From a virus: a stretch of DNA of 26,398 nt. The DNA is taken from IMG/VR virus record IMGVR_UViG_3300020020_000146, positions 1 through 26,398 of that record; one strand, 5' to 3'. Below are positions 1 through 14,612 of this stretch, piece after piece. Position 1 is the first letter of the stretch. Every line of letters begins with the position of its first letter. The position numbers and the translations under genes were made by a program. The notes beneath the pieces were generated by a model. That model searched no databases and was not told the DNA's origin. It worked only from the letters and a program-made list of their open reading frames with translations.

Positions 1-29
1 GTCTTGTAGTGCGCGCCTTGTTCAGCCAT
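1..29 (-). CDS. Partial gene running out of the window (possible DUF3310-like)
   Basis: Reading leftward from an ATG at 29, nine full codons and part of a tenth are present and give M-A-E-Q-G-A-H-Y-K-T. The start overlaps the end of the HD-domain gene by 8 nt, so it is probably the next gene of that operon. Short phage DUF3310 proteins often begin with a similar 'HYK' stretch, but ten residues are too few to assign a family. Confidence 0.5.
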
Positions 30-495
30 TGTAGCTCCTAAACAGTTTATCAGCCTCTTTGGTCGGGGGGCCCATAACAACCAGGGCCTCCCTCGCGGTT
101 TCGACCACGTACCGCATCAGATTGTTACCCATATCGACTTCTCTCATCGAGTACAGGTAACACTCGAACATATCCGCCCAAGCCAGGCACTTCTGCTCGA
201 CAGGAGTGAGCTGGAGGGGGGTCCCGTTAACCATAGCAAACTCCCGCTCGGCCTCTAGGCTGGTTTGCTTTAGCTTGGGGTATTTCTTCTTGCCGGTATA
301 GGGGATGTCCCCCGTTACGGACTCGGCCAGGTCGTGAGTCAGCGCGGCCTCTACCAGGTGGAGGTTCCCCGGCATGATCTCGCGGATGATTAGGGCTACC
401 CCCCACGAATGGGCGGCTAGGTCCTGATCCTTGAGTAGGTTCTGCGTATGGTACCGGCGCACGGCCCCGGCGTTGTAGAGCGTTTTGAAGTTCAT
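22..495 (-). CDS. HD-domain (deoxy)nucleotide phosphohydrolase
   Basis: This 157-aa protein carries the metal-binding set of the HD superfamily: H29 in 'AAHSW', the H54-D55 pair in 'LTHDLAES', and D108 in 'LAWADMFE'. The 'GDIP' after the HD pair and the overall length resemble YfbR-type 5'-deoxynucleotidases and the phage dATPase DatZ. The expected role is hydrolysis of a dNMP or dNTP in the cytoplasm. Next to a TS-family gene, a reasonable inference is that it removes a competing normal nucleotide so that a modified one dominates the pool. The substrate cannot be read from sequence. The gene has no Shine-Dalgarno sequence, and a TATACT box ends 7 nt before the ATG, so the mRNA is probably leaderless. 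It is separated from the TS homologue by 132 nt and has its own promoter. Confidence 0.82.
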   Translation of the reverse strand: MNFKTLYNAGAVRRYHTQNLLKDQDLAAHSWGVALIIREIMPGNLHLVEAALTHDLAESVTGDIPYTGKKKYPKLKQTSLEAEREFAMVNGTPLQLTPVEQKCLAWADMFECYLYSMREVDMGNNLMRYVVETAREALVVMGPPTKEADKLFRSYNG

Positions 496-502
496 AATTC
501 AG

Positions 503-508
503 AGTATA
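503..508 (-). promoter_or_regulatory. -10 box TATACT of the HD gene (leaderless start)
   Basis: On the minus strand, TATACT (overlapping TATATA) is followed by 7 nt and then the ATG at 495. This distance puts the expected transcription start on or next to the start codon. No convincing -35 box is visible in the G-rich DNA upstream. Confidence 0.5.
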
Positions 509-595
509 TACGATTTTACGGGGGGAGGGGGCCGACTATAGACCCCCGGGAACAACGTGAAATAGAGGCGGGCGGGCCGATTAGAGGGGCCCCCG

Positions 596-613
596 TAGGG
601 TACCCCACAAAAT
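596..613 (-). repeat. 18-bp repeat after the TS stop codon, copy 1
   Basis: Read on the minus strand this is ATTTTGTGGGGTACCCTA, starting 14 nt after the TAG of the TS homologue. An identical copy lies on the plus strand at 13703-13720, 11 nt after the stop of the primase-helicase. Both contain the palindrome GGGTACCC. The shared position after stop codons suggests a 3'-end signal rather than chance. Confidence 0.7.
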
Positions 614-627
614 TCGGATCGCGCCTC

Positions 628-1611
628 CTAGACGGCTTCCTTGGGTTTATACCGGCGCTCTAACCATTCCTTCGCCGCACGCCGCCAGTCGGTAGCGATA
701 CAGTTCTGGACATACTGTTGAGCCCACATCTGATCCCCCTTCTTATGGGCTTCCCAGGCCTGCGAGAGGGGGGCTACCACACCGGCGAAGAATGCCGTGC
801 GGAGGTCGTACTTGGGGTCCGTCCAGTAGCGGCAGTCCGCATCGAAGTCCTGGCGCTCGGTGGGATCGTTGAACAAGGGGACCGGGAGGACCTTGTGCTG
901 GGAGTACGGGTCCGAGTCAGGATCGGAGATCACCCCCAGGTCGAATAGCGGCCAGTGCTTCTCGTACACATGGAGATTGTTCGTGAACTGGTAGTAGGTC
1001 CCCTGTAGAAACCCGGTGGCCCGAGCGATGTACTCGTGGAGGATAGAGAGGTGGACGGCGTTCGCCCCGCAGGCCCCCCATACCAGGTCGTTGCTTCGGT
1101 TACACACCGTCATATTGAGGAACGGGGCGTTGATGTCGAAGTATATGTGGGTATTACAGGGCAGGTCCTTGCCCTCCCGGTTCAGGTCACTATGGGGGTC
1201 CCACATAGCGATCATTGCGCGGCGGGAGGAGGGGTCCCGCCTGAGCATCGAGATCACCGCCTCGATCTGGTCCACCCCGAAGTGGAGGCGCCAGCGGTGG
1301 CCGTAGGCCGCGTGAAGGGTCACCCCGTCGTCGCTGTACTCGCGTATCTGCGCCGCGTACTTAGCCGGCAGGTGTACCTCGTTGCTCCCCGAGAGCATCC
1401 AGATCGACTCGAACAGGTGGAAGAACGGGTTGGCATCCCGGTCCTCCGAGAACAAGACCCGCTCGGCAGGGTTGGTGTATTCCAACAGGGCAGGGAAGGG
1501 GAGTCTCATCACTCTCCCATTCCTGGAGGGCGACTCGGCCCCCTCCATTTGTAGCCGCCACATCGCCTCGGGGAACATCTGGTTAATGTTCCGGTTAACT
1601 AAATGCATCAT
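628..1611 (-). CDS. Thymidylate synthase homologue (TS or dUMP hydroxymethylase)
   Basis: This 327-aa protein has the TS signature: 'SRR' phosphate-binding arginines at 129-131, catalytic C152 in 'DLPCN', 'NRSND' at 171-175, an Asn (N184) in 'WGACGAN', and 'HVY' at 214-216. The Asn favours a uracil over a cytosine substrate, because dCMP hydroxymethylases carry Asp there. The position three before the catalytic Cys, Leu143 in E. coli ThyA, is Asp149 here, and the usual Cys-His pair is Cys-Asn. Hydrophobic shielding of the methylene intermediate is thought to separate methylases from hydroxymethylases, so this change is compatible with making 5-hydroxymethyl-dUMP. A plain TS is still possible. 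The gene overlaps the aGPT-Pplase-family gene by ATGA, which supports a joint role in base modification. Confidence 0.85.
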   Translation of the reverse strand: MMHLVNRNINQMFPEAMWRLQMEGAESPSRNGRVMRLPFPALLEYTNPAERVLFSEDRDANPFFHLFESIWMLSGSNEVHLPAKYAAQIREYSDDGVTLHAAYGHRWRLHFGVDQIEAVISMLRRDPSSRRAMIAMWDPHSDLNREGKDLPCNTHIYFDINAPFLNMTVCNRSNDLVWGACGANAVHLSILHEYIARATGFLQGTYYQFTNNLHVYEKHWPLFDLGVISDPDSDPYSQHKVLPVPLFNDPTERQDFDADCRYWTDPKYDLRTAFFAGVVAPLSQAWEAHKKGDQMWAQQYVQNCIATDWRRAAKEWLERRYKPKEAV

Positions 1612-2438
1612 GATGGTTCCTTAAATTGGGCCTTAGCCCTGCCTTTGAAATACTTGATCCGAACGTACTTGCTGAACTCGCACAGGCAGTTTTGGGTGTC
1701 GTGGGCGGTCAGGTCGTAGCCGGTGTTATACGCTATCTTGGGTCGTAGTTCGTTCACCTCCTTGGAGAATTGGGTAGCGTTGATCGAAGCGGTGGGGAGC
1801 CGCTCGTGTAGGTAGTTGAGCCCCCGTGACGAGCCGGGGCCGGGGGCGCAGAATGTCCACCAGTCGTTGGCGTATTCGAGCAGGGGCGTGTACTTGAGGT
1901 CGGCTATGACCTGGGCCGCTAGGAATGTCCCCAGCCCCCGGGCCGTCCGAATGATCTCGTAGGCCTGCCCTAGGGGCATGCTCTTCTTGATCGTTCTACA
2001 CATAGGCTGGGCCTCGTCCAGGACCCGGGCGATGATCGTCTGCTTGGTCTCCCCGCCCTTGGAGAATCCCCCGGTAACCATGTAGGCCCCCGTCCAGGCC
2101 TTGGTTCCGGCTAGGTTTAGGGAGTCCATCACGTATATGAATCGGTCCCGGTCCCATACCCCGGGGAAGCCCAGTTTCTCCAGGGTATCCGGCCAGTTAA
2201 CGGTACGGGCGACGCACATAGAGAAGGCCAGGTTCTCGTGGTGGCGGTAGGGGTCCCGCCAGTTCTCCTTGATCCACCGGGTGACCTTGTCGTCCTCCCG
2301 GCGGATGTTACAGAAGCGGGTAGTTCGGATGATCTGGTCCGTAGTCCACGGCGGGGGGCGGCGCTCCTCCTCCCGCCTAATCCGCACCCGCTCCCGCTCC
2401 TGTATCCAGTGATACAGTACATCTTCGTAGGGCATCAT
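1608..2438 (-). CDS. DNA thymine-hypermodification protein, aGPT-Pplase / HMUDK-helical family
   Basis: This 276-aa, mostly helical protein shows the pattern of the phage family called alpha-glutamyl/putrescinyl-thymine pyrophosphorylase (its helical domain is also named for 5-hmdU DNA kinases). Visible landmarks are 'PPWTTD' at 29-34, 'RFCNIRREDD' at 41-50, a helix-hairpin-helix-like 'GLGTFLAAQVIADL' at 168-181, and 'APGPGSSRGL' at 198-207. Members act on DNA carrying 5-hydroxymethyl-dU, in activation or replacement of the activated group by an amine. The start used here, at 2438, overlaps the upstream stop by ATGA and has GGAG 8 nt before it. The frame stays open upstream to 2495, but that extension would overlie the small membrane-protein gene. 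The next gene is the TS homologue, coupled by ATGA. Family recognition is from motif memory, and the exact reaction is unknown. Confidence 0.75.
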   Translation of the reverse strand: MMPYEDVLYHWIQERERVRIRREEERRPPPWTTDQIIRTTRFCNIRREDDKVTRWIKENWRDPYRHHENLAFSMCVARTVNWPDTLEKLGFPGVWDRDRFIYVMDSLNLAGTKAWTGAYMVTGGFSKGGETKQTIIARVLDEAQPMCRTIKKSMPLGQAYEIIRTARGLGTFLAAQVIADLKYTPLLEYANDWWTFCAPGPGSSRGLNYLHERLPTASINATQFSKEVNELRPKIAYNTGYDLTAHDTQNCLCEFSKYVRIKYFKGRAKAQFKEPS

Positions 2439-2536
2439 TTGTTTCTCCATAGCCACCAGAAGATGATTAGCATGAGGATGAACGGGATCAGCCATACCGT
2501 AAACAGTATGCCCGTGAACTCCTCTATGCTAGTCAT
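2435..2536 (-). CDS. Tiny single-span membrane protein (33 aa)
   Basis: An ATG at 2536 opens a 33-aa frame with a short polar N-terminus (MTSIEEF), one continuous hydrophobic segment of about 22 residues including two adjacent Trp, and a basic end (WRNK). It would be an inner-membrane protein. It overlaps the 40-aa membrane protein upstream and the aGPT-family gene downstream by ATGA on both sides, so it is locked into the modification operon by translational coupling. No family is recognised. Holin-like, accessory or membrane-tethering roles are all possible. The exact coupling on both sides argues that it is real despite its size. Confidence 0.6.
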   Translation of the reverse strand: MTSIEEFTGILFTVWLIPFILMLIIFWWLWRNK

Positions 2537-2655
2537 GGCTTGCTATCCAGGTCTTTCTTCATCCCCTTGACGAACAAGTAGGCGACGGTGACGATCGTGG
2601 CGCAGGGGATACCTACCACGATGAGGAGGGCGACCATCAGTTCAGCGTTGCTCAT
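2533..2655 (-). CDS. Tiny single-span membrane protein (40 aa)
   Basis: This 40-aa frame starts at 2655, inside the ATGA that ends the 74-aa gene. It has a short acidic head (MSNAEL), one hydrophobic span from about residue 7 to 29, and a charged tail (KGMKKDLDSK). Its stop overlaps the start of the 33-aa membrane protein, again by ATGA. The charge pattern suggests the N-terminus outside and the basic C-terminus in the cytoplasm. No known family is recognised. Together with its neighbour it forms a pair of tiny membrane proteins inside an otherwise enzymatic operon. Confidence 0.6.
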   Translation of the reverse strand: MSNAELMVALLIVVGIPCATIVTVAYLFVKGMKKDLDSKP

Positions 2656-2876
2656 AGTTCATATTCCCATTTGAGTGCGTCTTCCAGGGAAGTCGCGGTT
2701 ACAATTCCTTCCTTGGGGAAGGGCTTGATCCAGAAGGTGAGATTGTTCTTCTTGCGCCAGCCTTTCGACCAGCCAGACTTAACCAACTCCTCCTCCATCA
2801 CTTTCTCCAGCTCCAGCTGGGCGGCCCGGATACGGTTGTATCCTGCGCCGGACATAGGGGTGGAGCCGATAGTCAT
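2652..2876 (-). CDS. Hypothetical protein (74 aa)
   Basis: I do not recognise this 74-aa protein. The chosen ATG at 2876 forms an ATGA overlap with the stop of the P-loop kinase. The longer frame to 2993 would overlie the kinase by 121 nt and is unlikely. It has a helical, charged middle ('AAQLELEKVMEEELV'), a Trp- and Lys-rich stretch ('WSKGWRKK') and an acidic C-terminus. The Trp/Lys patch could contact nucleic acid or a partner, but that is inference. It sits between the kinase and the two tiny membrane proteins. Confidence 0.65.
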   Translation of the reverse strand: MTIGSTPMSGAGYNRIRAAQLELEKVMEEELVKSGWSKGWRKKNNLTFWIKPFPKEGIVTATSLEDALKWEYEL

Positions 2877-3445
2877 CGGGATTCCAAAAGCTGTAGGAGC
2901 TGGGCTAAGGGCAGCTTCTCGTAGTTGAGGACGGCTACCTTGTGCTGGCCCTCCTTGGATAGCTTGTCCTGTAGTCGCTTGATCGTATTCCACTTGTTCC
3001 TCGTTAGCTCAGGATTGAACTTGTTCTTGCTCTCGTTGGTCGCCCTCCGGGTCACTACCCGGTCCAGGCAGACGTTGATCGGGGTATCCAGGAAGGCATA
3101 CACGTAGCCGTCCCCATACTTCTTGGAGTGCTCCCCCATCGCCCCGTAGTAGGTGCTCTGGAGTAGGCCCTCGTGTACTATGTGGCCGTCCTTCGCATAG
3201 CGGTCAATCATCTCCATGACCTCCTGGGCGGTGCCGACCGTATCGACTCCCCCACAGTTGCTCTCGTAGCTCCCCAGCAGGAACACGGGCACGTCTAGCT
3301 CTAGCAAGTCGAGGCGGTAGCCCACGATCTTGCGTCGGTTGTTGATCTCGTGTAGATGATCAATGGTGGCGGCGGCTTCGATCAGGGATCGGGCGAAGGT
3401 GGTTTTACCCGCCCCCGAGCAGCCGTGTATCTTAAGAATAGTCAT
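2873..3445 (-). CDS. P-loop kinase, probable 5-hydroxymethyl-dU DNA kinase
   Basis: This 190-aa P-loop protein has a Walker A motif 'GCSGAGKT' at residues 8-15. It then has a distinctive 'GSYESNCGGVDTV' at 58-70, 'EGLL' at 92-95, and a lid-like 'DTPINVCLDRVVTRR' at 120-134. The 'G-x-Y-E-x-x-C-G-G-x-D-T' block is one I associate with phage kinases found with aGPT-Pplase genes, which phosphorylate 5-hydroxymethyl-dU in DNA. The same operon holds the TS homologue and an aGPT-family protein, which fits. The gene starts directly after the helicase stop (TAAATG) with an AGGAGGG site, and ends in an ATGA overlap. A nucleoside or nucleotide kinase acting on the pool is the main alternative. Confidence 0.7.
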   Translation of the reverse strand: MTILKIHGCSGAGKTTFARSLIEAAATIDHLHEINNRRKIVGYRLDLLELDVPVFLLGSYESNCGGVDTVGTAQEVMEMIDRYAKDGHIVHEGLLQSTYYGAMGEHSKKYGDGYVYAFLDTPINVCLDRVVTRRATNESKNKFNPELTRNKWNTIKRLQDKLSKEGQHKVAVLNYEKLPLAQLLQLLESR

Positions 3446-4807
3446 TTAAGCCCTCCTGGCTTTAAGTGCGTCGTTAAATCGGGTTTGTGTCCGGTCTTTG
3501 GCCTCTAGGGCCTTCATTACATCCTCGTCCTTGGTGTCCTTAGTACCAATGTGGTGGACCATTACAATGGGCGCGATCTGACCTTGACGCCAGACGCGGG
3601 CGATAAGTTGCTGGTAGTGCTCTAGGTTCCACGTGATGCCGAACCAGCAGACGGTAGAGCAAGCCTCCTGGAGGTTCAAGCCATGCCCCGCGCTAGCCGG
3701 GTGGGCCAGGAGGACGGGGATATGGCCCGCGTTGAACTTGTCGATCACCGCTTGGGGGCTCTTGGTCTTACCCAGGTCGATGGCCGAGGGGAGCCGCTTG
3801 AGTATCCGGTCGGCGTCGGCTTGGAACTCGTAGGCGACCAGGAGGGGTCGGCCCTGCATTTCCTCGATCAACTCCTCCAGGGCGTCAATCTTCTCGTCGT
3901 GGAGGTCGATGGTCCGGCGGTCTGTCTCGATGTCGGTGTAGATAAAGCCGTTAGCCATCTGGCGGAGCTTCACCCCTACCGCCGCCGCGTTGAAGGTAGC
4001 GATGGACTCGTCGTTCATCTTGGTGACGAAGTTGTCCTCCAACTCCTTGTACGACTTCCGTAGGTGAGCCGGTAGCTCGACCCCGATGAAGTTGTTGACT
4101 AGCTCGGGCATATCGAGGTGATCGCGGGCGTCCATACGCAGGAGCTTGTCGTGGACCCGCTTATAGATGATCTCCTCTGCCCCCCGGTTCAAGTGGTACT
4201 CGTACAGGTTCCCCGGGGCCTGATGCATGAACTCGTTACGGAAGTGGGTAATGTACTTACCCAGGGACTCCCCGAAGTCAACGACGAACATCTGACCGAA
4301 CAGGTCAGCGACCCCGTTGGGGACAGGGGTCCCCGTAAGGATCATACGGCGCTTAAAGCTGAACAGGACCTTCTTGAGCGCCTTAAAGCGCTGAGTCGTA
4401 GTGTCCTTGAACTTCGTACTCTCGTCCAATACCAGCAGGTCAAAGTCCCTGGTGAGGAGCGGGAGGACCTTAACCAGGCTTTCCGGGTTGATAAGGTAGA
4501 CATCGTTGGGGGCGGCGATCAGCCGCTTGCGCTCGGCCTCGGGCTGGTTACAGAGATTGGCGACCTTTAGGTGGTTGAAGTCGGACCACTTCTTAGCCTC
4601 GTTGGGCCAGACGGTGTGGCAGACCCGGAGGGGGGCGACCACAAGTGTCTTCTTGATCTCTTTCTCCGCAATGAGGATCGAGATACAGGCGAGAGTGATT
4701 GAGGTCTTTCCCAGGCCGGGGTCGAGCATAAGCCCGCAACCCGCCCGCGCTAGGGCGAACCCAATAGCCTTTTCCTGGTAGTCCTTCGGCATCCAATCAC
4801 GCGACAT
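3446..4807 (-). CDS. SNF2-like SF2 DNA helicase/translocase
   Basis: This 453-aa protein has the two RecA-like halves of an SF2 enzyme of the SNF2 type: Walker A 'DPGLGKTS' at 29-36, motif II 'LVLDEST' at 125-131, motif III 'ILTGTPVPNG' at 156-165, and motif VI 'QLIARVWRQGQ' at 400-410. It should use ATP to move along or remodel duplex DNA. Phage copies are typically near replication genes and are small, with no extra chromatin-type domains, as here. It overlaps the preceding transferase-like gene by 11 nt and has GGGGAG upstream of the ATG. In this operon it could give modification enzymes access to DNA or serve recombination and replication; the sequence does not say which. Confidence 0.9.
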   Translation of the reverse strand: MSRDWMPKDYQEKAIGFALARAGCGLMLDPGLGKTSITLACISILIAEKEIKKTLVVAPLRVCHTVWPNEAKKWSDFNHLKVANLCNQPEAERKRLIAAPNDVYLINPESLVKVLPLLTRDFDLLVLDESTKFKDTTTQRFKALKKVLFSFKRRMILTGTPVPNGVADLFGQMFVVDFGESLGKYITHFRNEFMHQAPGNLYEYHLNRGAEEIIYKRVHDKLLRMDARDHLDMPELVNNFIGVELPAHLRKSYKELEDNFVTKMNDESIATFNAAAVGVKLRQMANGFIYTDIETDRRTIDLHDEKIDALEELIEEMQGRPLLVAYEFQADADRILKRLPSAIDLGKTKSPQAVIDKFNAGHIPVLLAHPASAGHGLNLQEACSTVCWFGITWNLEHYQQLIARVWRQGQIAPIVMVHHIGTKDTKDEDVMKALEAKDRTQTRFNDALKARRA

Positions 4808-5618
4808 GGCGATACTCCCCGCGAATGTAGAGGCCCTGAGGTATACGGGCCGGAATGTGTTCAGTGATGTTCTGGGGCAGGTCCCCCAGGAGATTCCAAG
4901 CGTCGGCTATGTCCTCCCCGATCCAGTGGGCCTTGGTCTTGAGGTAGCCCTTGAGGGTACAGATGACCGTCTCGACCTCGCCCAGGCCGCACTTCTCCCC
5001 GACCTTGACCGGGTGATCGAATTGAGACACGTGGTCGAGGACCGTCTTGACCGTGGTCTTTAGGTCGTGGTGGGGAAAGAACTCGGCGGCTGCTTCCTTC
5101 GGCACGTCAGGCATGTACTTGACCGCGTCCTCTACGGACATCGTTACCGGCCAATCGAGGCAGATGTCGTACCAATCCATCAGCTTCCAAGTATAGTAGG
5201 GGCCCAGGGAACATCCCTGGTACTTGTTCTGGATATGCTTGAACATCGTGGGGTAGTGCTCCTTGTGCATATCGGCTACGATCTGCGCTGGGGTCAGGCC
5301 CTTACCCGCCATATGCTCGATAGCCTTGGAGGCCACTAGCCCCCGGAAGTGCCGGCGGGCCCCCCGGCGCTTAACCAGGTCTGCGGCCCCGTCGATGCGG
5401 CACTTATCCCAGAATGTCCTCTCGGTGGTACTACCCGCGACGTTGTAGGCATCGCGGAGGTTATAGAACCACATATAGTGGAGGATGAATCGACCGTTCC
5501 ACTCGGAGTCGTGGAGGTCGAACAGGGCGCGAAGGACAGGATAGGTCGGGTCCAGGTCCTTGGTCTCTATCATGACTTGGGAGAAGTCTCTCCAGTTATC
5601 AACTACTATCGGGTTCAT
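4797..5618 (-). CDS. Putative amino-acid:DNA transferase-like protein (ADDT / aGPT-Pplase clade 2 candidate)
   Basis: This 273-aa protein is largely helical and has no signal peptide or membrane span. A central motif 'GCSLGPYYTWKLMDWYD' at 135-151 resembles the 'G-x-G-P-Y/F-x-A-x-K/Q-x-x-D' core of the DNA-base transferases related to aGPT-Pplases. The same kind of motif occurs in the aGPT-family protein of this operon at its residues 168-181. Family members attach an amine or amino acid to activated 5-hydroxymethyl-dU in DNA. The gene lies between the VRR-NUC gene (20-nt overlap) and the SNF2 helicase (11-nt overlap). The assignment is from one motif plus context. A structural protein of unknown function cannot be excluded. 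Confidence 0.5.
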   Translation of the reverse strand: MNPIVVDNWRDFSQVMIETKDLDPTYPVLRALFDLHDSEWNGRFILHYMWFYNLRDAYNVAGSTTERTFWDKCRIDGAADLVKRRGARRHFRGLVASKAIEHMAGKGLTPAQIVADMHKEHYPTMFKHIQNKYQGCSLGPYYTWKLMDWYDICLDWPVTMSVEDAVKYMPDVPKEAAAEFFPHHDLKTTVKTVLDHVSQFDHPVKVGEKCGLGEVETVICTLKGYLKTKAHWIGEDIADAWNLLGDLPQNITEHIPARIPQGLYIRGEYRHVA

Positions 5619-5880
5619 CTACGAATTTCCTAATGGCCTTTCGACCGTCAATTATGTTGTCGACCAGGATCACCTCGAATCCTTGCTTCCTGATCAGCTC
5701 GATAACGTAAACCTGTAGGGGCTTAGGTCTCTCACCGGGACGCTTGAACTCGATGAAGAGAATCCGGCCCTTCCACAAGAACATGTAGTCGGGCCAACCC
5801 TCTCCGAAACTCAGTTTGCGGGCTATTATCCCCCTGCGTCGGGCGAACTCTATCACCCTCGCCTGAATCTGGCTTTCCAA
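5599..5880 (-). CDS. VRR-NUC domain nuclease
   Basis: This 93-aa protein is a minimal VRR-NUC fold: N-terminal E2, 'GWPDYMFL' with D31, 'FIEFKRPG' with E44 and K46, and Q56 after it. That is the catalytic series of this PD-(D/E)XK group, and the length is normal for phage stand-alone members. Such proteins cut structured DNA, for instance junctions or flaps. The frame opens with TTG; the in-frame TAA just upstream lies within the -10 box, so no earlier start is possible. No Shine-Dalgarno sequence is present and the TATAAT box ends 5 nt before the TTG, so the transcript is probably leaderless. It is the first gene of the modification operon. Confidence 0.85.
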   Translation of the reverse strand: MESQIQARVIEFARRRGIIARKLSFGEGWPDYMFLWKGRILFIEFKRPGERPKPLQVYVIELIRKQGFEVILVDNIIDGRKAIRKFVDEPDSS

Positions 5881-13776: not shown

Positions 13777-13962
13777 TTAGGGGGCCGGGGGCCTGGCGAT
13801 AGGGACTGGAGCCTGGGGGAGAATCAGGAGGCTGACTTTCCCATCGTGGGCGTGACCCCGGATTACGCAATAGGGGGTCCCCATGTCGATGGTGATCTCA
13901 TCTTGGAGGAGGGCCAGATGGGCCTTGGCGGCTTCGCGTTGGTTGAGGAAGGTGATTTTCAT
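13777..13962 (-). CDS. Hypothetical protein (61 aa)
   Basis: No family is recognised. The ATG at 13962 overlaps the methyltransferase stop by ATGA, which makes it the better start than 14049. The first half ('KITFLNQREAAKAHLALLQ') is helical; the end is hydrophobic and Pro-rich ('LLILPQAPVPIARPPAP'). It is the last gene of the methyltransferase operon, right before the bidirectional terminator. Confidence 0.6.
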   Translation of the reverse strand: MKITFLNQREAAKAHLALLQDEITIDMGTPYCVIRGHAHDGKVSLLILPQAPVPIARPPAP

Positions 13963-14612
13963 TCGCTGATCCAGAGGTAAGGGATTGAGTTGCGTTGAAC
14001 TATCTCGGCTATGCCGGGCTCCAATTTGATGAAAGGGTGTACCGACCAAGGGGGGGTCTTGACCCTATGGAATCCTCGACCGGCCAGTTGGGCGGTGCTA
14101 GGGGCGTTGTAGTTCATTATTTCGCAGAATTGACCGTCAGTGTCGAACACATCTAGTACCACGACCGGACCAGAGGTGTACTCTAAGGCCCTGTCTAGCA
14201 CTTTCGGCAGGTCCATATGACCGAGCGCGTAGGATATGAGTGTAACGTCCGGGGCCGACATGGGCTCATAGTCCTCGGCCTTAGAGTGGATCAGAAACCC
14301 CTCACAGACGCACAAGTCCAGCTGGGCCTTCGATTGGTTGAGAAGGTCGAATTGGAAGTCTGGCCGGGCTTTCTTCCAATGGGCCTCCATACCGCCCACG
14401 CCGCAGCCGAGCGACAGGATTTGGGCGGGATGAGAGGTGGGTAGTTGTAGGGCTTCCAGGACCTTGAGGGAGTGGGCCCCCTCGTCAGGATCCAACATCC
14501 AAAGTTGGAAAACCTCGTGGTTCTCCGATAGGAGCCATTCGGTGGTCTCCTTGACCTTGGCCTCGTTACGGTAGAGGGGGTGTGACTCGGGGGTGTTTAT
14601 TGCTGATCGCAT
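13959..14612 (-). CDS. Class I SAM-dependent methyltransferase
   Basis: This 217-aa protein has a Rossmann-type motif I 'ILSLGCGVGGME' near residues 65-76, an acidic turn after the second strand, and a motif IV/V region 'PDVTLISYALGHMDL' that resembles small-molecule or protein methyltransferases. The NPPY or DPPY motif of DNA adenine/cytosine-N4 methylases and the PCQ motif of cytosine-C5 methylases are not seen. The target is unknown. One inference is that it methylates a side group of the hypermodified base or a host factor. It is coupled to a tiny membrane protein upstream (16-nt overlap) and to a 61-aa gene downstream (ATGA). Confidence 0.75.
   Translation of the reverse strand: MRSAINTPESHPLYRNEAKVKETTEWLLSENHEVFQLWMLDPDEGAHSLKVLEALQLPTSHPAQILSLGCGVGGMEAHWKKARPDFQFDLLNQSKAQLDLCVCEGFLIHSKAEDYEPMSAPDVTLISYALGHMDLPKVLDRALEYTSGPVVVLDVFDTDGQFCEIMNYNAPSTAQLAGRGFHRVKTPPWSVHPFIKLEPGIAEIVQRNSIPYLWISE

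Follow-up and report, generated by a model that had tools for sequence, protein, structure and literature searches.

The window, by which is meant the whole stretch of DNA analysed, is a virus record of 26,398 bases; it is a 26.4-kb fragment, and the remaining genome is judged here from its relatives. The modification genes are all intact ORFs of the minus strand, transcribed in the order VRR-NUC nuclease, ADDT relative, SNF2 helicase, P-loop kinase, small ORFs, HMUDK_hel (aGPT-Pplase1), thymidylate synthase (TS) homologue and HD nucleotidase (Table 1). The original prediction had described a leftward operon of TS, HMUDK-helical, P-loop kinase and ADDT-like genes at 1608-5880. All of these are present as intact minus-strand ORFs, and the span is accurate from HMUDK_hel to VRR-NUC, but not for the TS gene. 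Since the TS gene (628-1611) and the functionally linked HD/YfbR gene (22-495) lie to the left of 1608, the cassette extends over about 22-5880.

Table 1. Genes of the modification cassette and the evidence for each
Feature	Position	Strand	Evidence
HD-domain YfbR-like nucleotidase, 157 aa	22..495	-	PF12917 1.1e-11
TS homologue, probable dUMP 5-hydroxymethylase, 327 aa	628..1611	-	PF00303 2.4e-23; phrog_5131 4.5e-106
HMUDK_hel / aGPT-Pplase clade 1, 276 aa from likely start	1608..2438	-	PF18723 4.4e-41
33-codon ORF, one likely membrane helix (by eye), ATGA overlap with HMUDK_hel	2435..2536	-	sequence reading
40-codon ORF, one likely membrane helix (by eye)	2533..2655	-	similar frame in G001, G003, G004, G006
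Conserved 74-aa protein, ATGA overlap with kinase	2652..2876	-	six other contigs, 2e-29 or better
P-loop 5-hmdU DNA kinase homologue, 190 aa, block GSYESNCGGVDT	2873..3445	-	PF18748 7.2e-7
SNF2-family helicase, 453 aa, replication-module gene inside operon	3446..4807	-	PF00176 1.8e-23; phrog_62 1.7e-134
Divergent ADDT / aGPT-Pplase clade 2, 273 aa	4797..5618	-	phmmer, tblastn, AF2 model
VRR-NUC nuclease, 93 aa, replication-module gene	5599..5880	-	phrog_93 4.4e-19; PF08774 9.5e-4, below gathering score

ATGA overlaps join the kinase to the 74-aa ORF and HMUDK_hel to TS, and connect the two very small ORFs (2435-2655) up to HMUDK_hel; ADDT and SNF2 overlap by 11 nt, and VRR-NUC and ADDT by 20 nt. 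Overlapping neighbours of this kind are probably coupled, as in an operon. Scans for promoters and terminators gave nothing above chance level. The gene order is identical in more than 10 IMG/VR contigs. The 74-aa protein has no match in PHROG and belongs to no known family. HMUDK_hel probably starts at 2438 rather than at 2495, because distinct relatives align from residue 8 at the earliest of the longer ORF, most of them from 17 onward, and because a GGAG sits 7 nt upstream of the ATG at 2438.

Among named phages, a search with the first 10 kb of the window found no relative at the DNA level. The right half encodes terminase, portal and major capsid proteins, which are closest to those of Stenotrophomonas phage BUCT555 and Myxococcus phages Mx8 and Mx9. 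In the left half, a leftward operon of replication genes (family-A DNA polymerase, PD-(D/E)XK nuclease, VRR-NUC) leads into the modification genes. The neighbourhood of the SNF2 helicase is the same in relatives. VRR-NUC and SNF2 had been predicted to fall outside the core modification set, a view that can now be refined: both are replication-module genes, and the module travels together with the cassette. This joint replication and modification module is found beside different structural genes, a P22-type coat and portal in ctfPj964 and Mx8-like genes in the window, which suggests module exchange. Positions 13959-14612 may encode a class I methyltransferase-like protein (LSLGCGVGG), whose match to Pfam MTS is weak (0.018).

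Each core gene is homologous to its counterpart in M6, PaMx11, ViI and phiW-14, all of which are hypermodified-thymine phages. Against HMMs built without the window proteins, the scores were 6e-35 for ADDT, 6e-38 for the kinase, 5e-51 for HMUDK_hel, 2e-112 for TS and 5e-28 for HD, while the best of 2000 shuffled copies used as a control reached 0.06 or worse overall (0.37 for ADDT). The real scores lie so far beyond the shuffled copies that chance is excluded. Of the Pfam families named in the original prediction, HMUDK_hel (PF18723) and TS (PF00303) are recovered, as is the kinase family PF18748, but ADDT (PF18724) gives no direct match. By profile searches, by a structural match and by synteny, every core gene is assigned to the thymine-hypermodification set, in line with the operon that had been proposed, and the kinase and helical proteins fall into families of this pathway rather than into unrelated ones. 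It is very likely that the operon serves this function. Many phages have TS homologues, and the locus could in principle comprise a normal thymidylate synthase, a nucleotide kinase, an HD nucleotidase and unrelated helical proteins engaged in ordinary nucleotide metabolism. However, the HMUDK_hel and ADDT families are defined by the hypermodification pathway and the window kinase aligns with 5-hmdU DNA kinases, making this reading extremely improbable.

The TS homologue is 44.9% identical over its full length to M6 gp58, and its best PDB match is CMP hydroxymethylase (3e-21). It is probably a dUMP 5-hydroxymethylase, an assignment made in the knowledge that sequence alone cannot distinguish a TS homologue from a hydroxymethylase (PMC5977210). 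An HD gene directly follows TS also in M6 (gp59), PaMx11 (gp52), Pam3 (as a 5'-deoxynucleotidase) and P26218. By analogy with phiW-14, which has a dTTPase (PMC5977210), the HD nucleotidase probably lowers the dTMP/dTTP pool.

The P-loop kinase scores 29.3 bits against PF18748, for which the gathering cut-off is 27. Its alignment with the M6, PaMx11 and ViI kinases contains the invariant residues G8, G11, G13, K14, G58, Y60, G66, D68, E92, G93, T121, C126 and R133. A sequence search with the M6 kinase found no relative of solved structure. The kinase homologues of M6, PaMx11, phiW-14, ViI and P26218 carry the annotation 'terminase small subunit' (L031 5686-6249, L032 6218-6787, L068 848-1633, L062 704-1366 and L029 10603-11181), as does PHROG 800; on 5-hmdU DNA kinase homologues, this label is probably an annotation error that has spread. 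In a third type of cassette (L085, L086, L090, L091, L092), two tandem P-loop kinase genes precede HMUDK_hel.

HMUDK_hel scores 141.5 bits against PF18723 (cut-off 25) and shares 28-32% identity with M6 gp55, PaMx11 gp50 and phiW-14 gp72. Sequence searches found no relative of solved structure. Its AlphaFold2 model (pLDDT 90) matches best the ADDT structure 8z2n (Z 10.6) and then glycosylases (8-10), values near the level that helical folds reach by arrangement alone, and in Foldseek E is above 0.1. The model tentatively suggests an HhH-GPD (glycosylase)-like fold. Homology between HMUDK_hel and ADDT at the level of sequence was considered and rejected, as hhalign found no alignment between the two family profiles.

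In those contigs of the window clade that are long enough to show the place, HMUDK_hel comes after the kinase. PF18723 is missing from 19 of the 20 records searched for the P26218-type cassette, namely both named genomes and 17 of the 18 IMG/VR records, several of which are fragments only; the remaining IMG/VR record has HMUDK_hel elsewhere in the cassette. As the P26218-type phages retain the kinase, ADDT, TS and HD, HMUDK_hel would not be required in every such pathway, and the sister cassette thus calls into question the obligatory role assumed for it. The idea that HMUDK_hel and the P-loop kinase are mutual substitutes was rejected, since a broader profile finds the kinase in phiW-14 and both Acinetobacter phages. 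The existence of sister cassettes with and without HMUDK_hel makes its role directly testable.

The second helical protein has no direct PF18724 match in Pfam, and most of its clade is missed too. A homologue in Rhodoferax phage P26218 (gp14) matches PF18724 at 6e-48. By tblastn the window protein finds phiW-14 gp109 (2e-13) and a Pam3 gene annotated aGPT-Pplase2, and by phmmer it finds PDB 8z2m (2e-6), the PaMx11 5-phosphomethyl-dU glycinyltransferase, from whose title the pathway step of ADDT is taken. An AlphaFold2 model (pLDDT 94) superposes on 8z2n, a crystal structure of the PaMx11 glycinyltransferase, with a TM of 0.78 (E 6e-10) and a Z of 27.6 over 249 residues; the next best match outside the entries of that protein is 7.9. 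Residues D23, P24, Y26, Y52, R84, R88, R92, G139, K145, D148, E214, E216 and C220, which are invariant or nearly so among 24 ADDT proteins, are kept. We therefore take the protein to be a divergent ADDT relative outside the curated PF18724 model. Bacterial genomes searched for ADDT gave only three distant matches. That Pfam misses this clade means that hypermodification systems are undercounted.

In a tree of the 24 ADDT proteins, the window protein and its podovirus relatives form their own clade. Separate groups are formed by the glycine clade, by phiW-14 with two Acinetobacter phages, by P26218 with ctfPj964, and by ViI. The substrates of the characterised enzymes we take to be glycine (M6, PaMx11) and serine (ViI). 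Besides lying outside the M6/PaMx11 clade, the window protein lacks its clade-specific residues, having Y141, W144, L222 and G224 in place of W, F, W and S. Y141 and W144, which sit between the invariant G139 and K145, are common to the window clade, phiW-14 and P26218. The separate clade, together with Y and W residues unlike those of the glycine clade, makes glycine less likely as the side chain. Assignment of a side chain from the tree was rejected as impossible, the clades being separate and their branches long. That most of the window clade escapes the Pfam ADDT model and stands apart from every characterised clade might also indicate that modification ends at 5-hmdU or phosphorylated hmdU, with the divergent ADDT or HMUDK_hel inactive or otherwise employed. 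Yet the family-invariant residues and the fold are preserved and the ADDT gene stays in place among relatives, so that such an endpoint is quite improbable.

The apparent lack of tailoring genes, noted in the original prediction for the window itself, is strengthened by relatives. Three of these (G001, G003, G004; 44-45 kb, ADDT 88-96% identical) cover the part of the genome that the window lacks. Near-complete relatives (39-45 kb) were searched with HMMs of the M6 and PaMx11 tailoring enzymes, together with PF04055 and PF00291; none yielded a radical-SAM, PALP-type PLP, flavin-lyase, GNAT or Nmad5 homologue, while the positive controls M6 and Pam3 scored. The extra region of G001 encodes tail, adaptor and lysis proteins, along with several genes without a family match; a PAPS-reductase-like gene (PHROG 424) lies amid its tail genes (L037 10321-10989). 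The genes without a family match in relatives, like the conserved and unexplained 74-aa protein, leave some room for a base tailored like those of M6 or PaMx11, made by enzymes of unrecognised families. Given that none of the tailoring homologues searched for turned up in near-complete relatives, this is unlikely. A tailoring step is likely to be absent, and the base is therefore probably a thymine substituted directly with an amine or amino acid.

A small number of characterised phages decorate thymine and thereby escape host enzymes. The virus studied here very probably replaces part of its thymine with such a chemically decorated form. The bases of M6, ViI and phiW-14 derive from hmdU by way of phosphorylated hmdU in DNA (PMC6449724; PMC5977210), and putrescinylthymine in phiW-14 is made via hmdUTP and a pyrophosphorylated intermediate (PMC5977210). 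Homology establishes which genes are present and in what order, as well as the ADDT fold and the conserved residues; from it we infer each reaction in this phage. First, the TS homologue would convert dUMP to 5-hydroxymethyl-dUMP, while the HD nucleotidase would lower dTMP/dTTP, allowing hmdU to enter new DNA. The P-loop kinase, with or without HMUDK_hel, would then phosphorylate the 5-hydroxymethyl group in duplex DNA. Finally the ADDT relative, whose fold is glycosylase-like, would swap the phosphate for an amine supplied by an amino acid or polyamine, yielding an alpha-N-substituted thymine, and no tailoring would follow. With high confidence, then, the best account is a compact thymine-hypermodification operon in an Mx8-like podovirus, giving an amine-substituted product without tailoring. 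More tentatively, it is possible that the window ADDT clade adds an amine or amino acid new to DNA, producing a novel, tailoring-free thymine derivative, and that HMUDK_hel tunes rather than enables the process. As the genes form one short operon, the whole pathway could be tested in vitro.

The nearest parallels in organisation are M6 and PaMx11 (Mesyanzhinovviridae). The M6 order is ADDT, PLP enzyme, radical SAM, kinase, HMUDK_hel, Nmad5, TS and HD, its genes being named after their homologues in the annotated SN1 cassette; in PaMx11 it is ADDT, FAD enzyme, acetyltransferase, kinase, HMUDK_hel, TS and HD. The window, with ADDT, SNF2, kinase, small ORFs, HMUDK_hel, TS and HD, has the shared core in the same relative order, likewise adjoining polA. 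Unlike these phages, it is without PLP, radical-SAM, FAD-lyase, GNAT and Nmad5 genes, and its ADDT falls outside the glycine clade. Rhodoferax phage P26218 and ctfPj964 similarly carry polA, VRR-NUC, SNF2, ADDT, kinase, TS and HD in one run, but these genomes lack HMUDK_hel, and ADDT comes after SNF2 rather than before it as in the window.

Delftia phage phiW-14, which contains alpha-putrescinylthymine, shares a TS homologue, a kinase (gp37), HMUDK_hel (gp72) and ADDT (gp109), the last being the closest by BLAST score to that of the window among phages with a measured base. Its genes, however, are scattered over 157 kb instead of forming a single operon, and the two ADDTs belong to separate tree clades. 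Salmonella phage ViI (5-NeOmdU) likewise has homologues of the kinase (orf67), HMUDK_hel (orf160) and ADDT (orf247), but they are dispersed, and no homologue of its second P-loop kinase, orf243, turned up in G001, the relative searched. Systems of this kind are already known; what is new here is the divergent ADDT clade missed by Pfam, the contrast between cassettes with and without HMUDK_hel, and an apparently tailoring-free operon that would extend thymine hypermodification to Mx8-like podoviruses.
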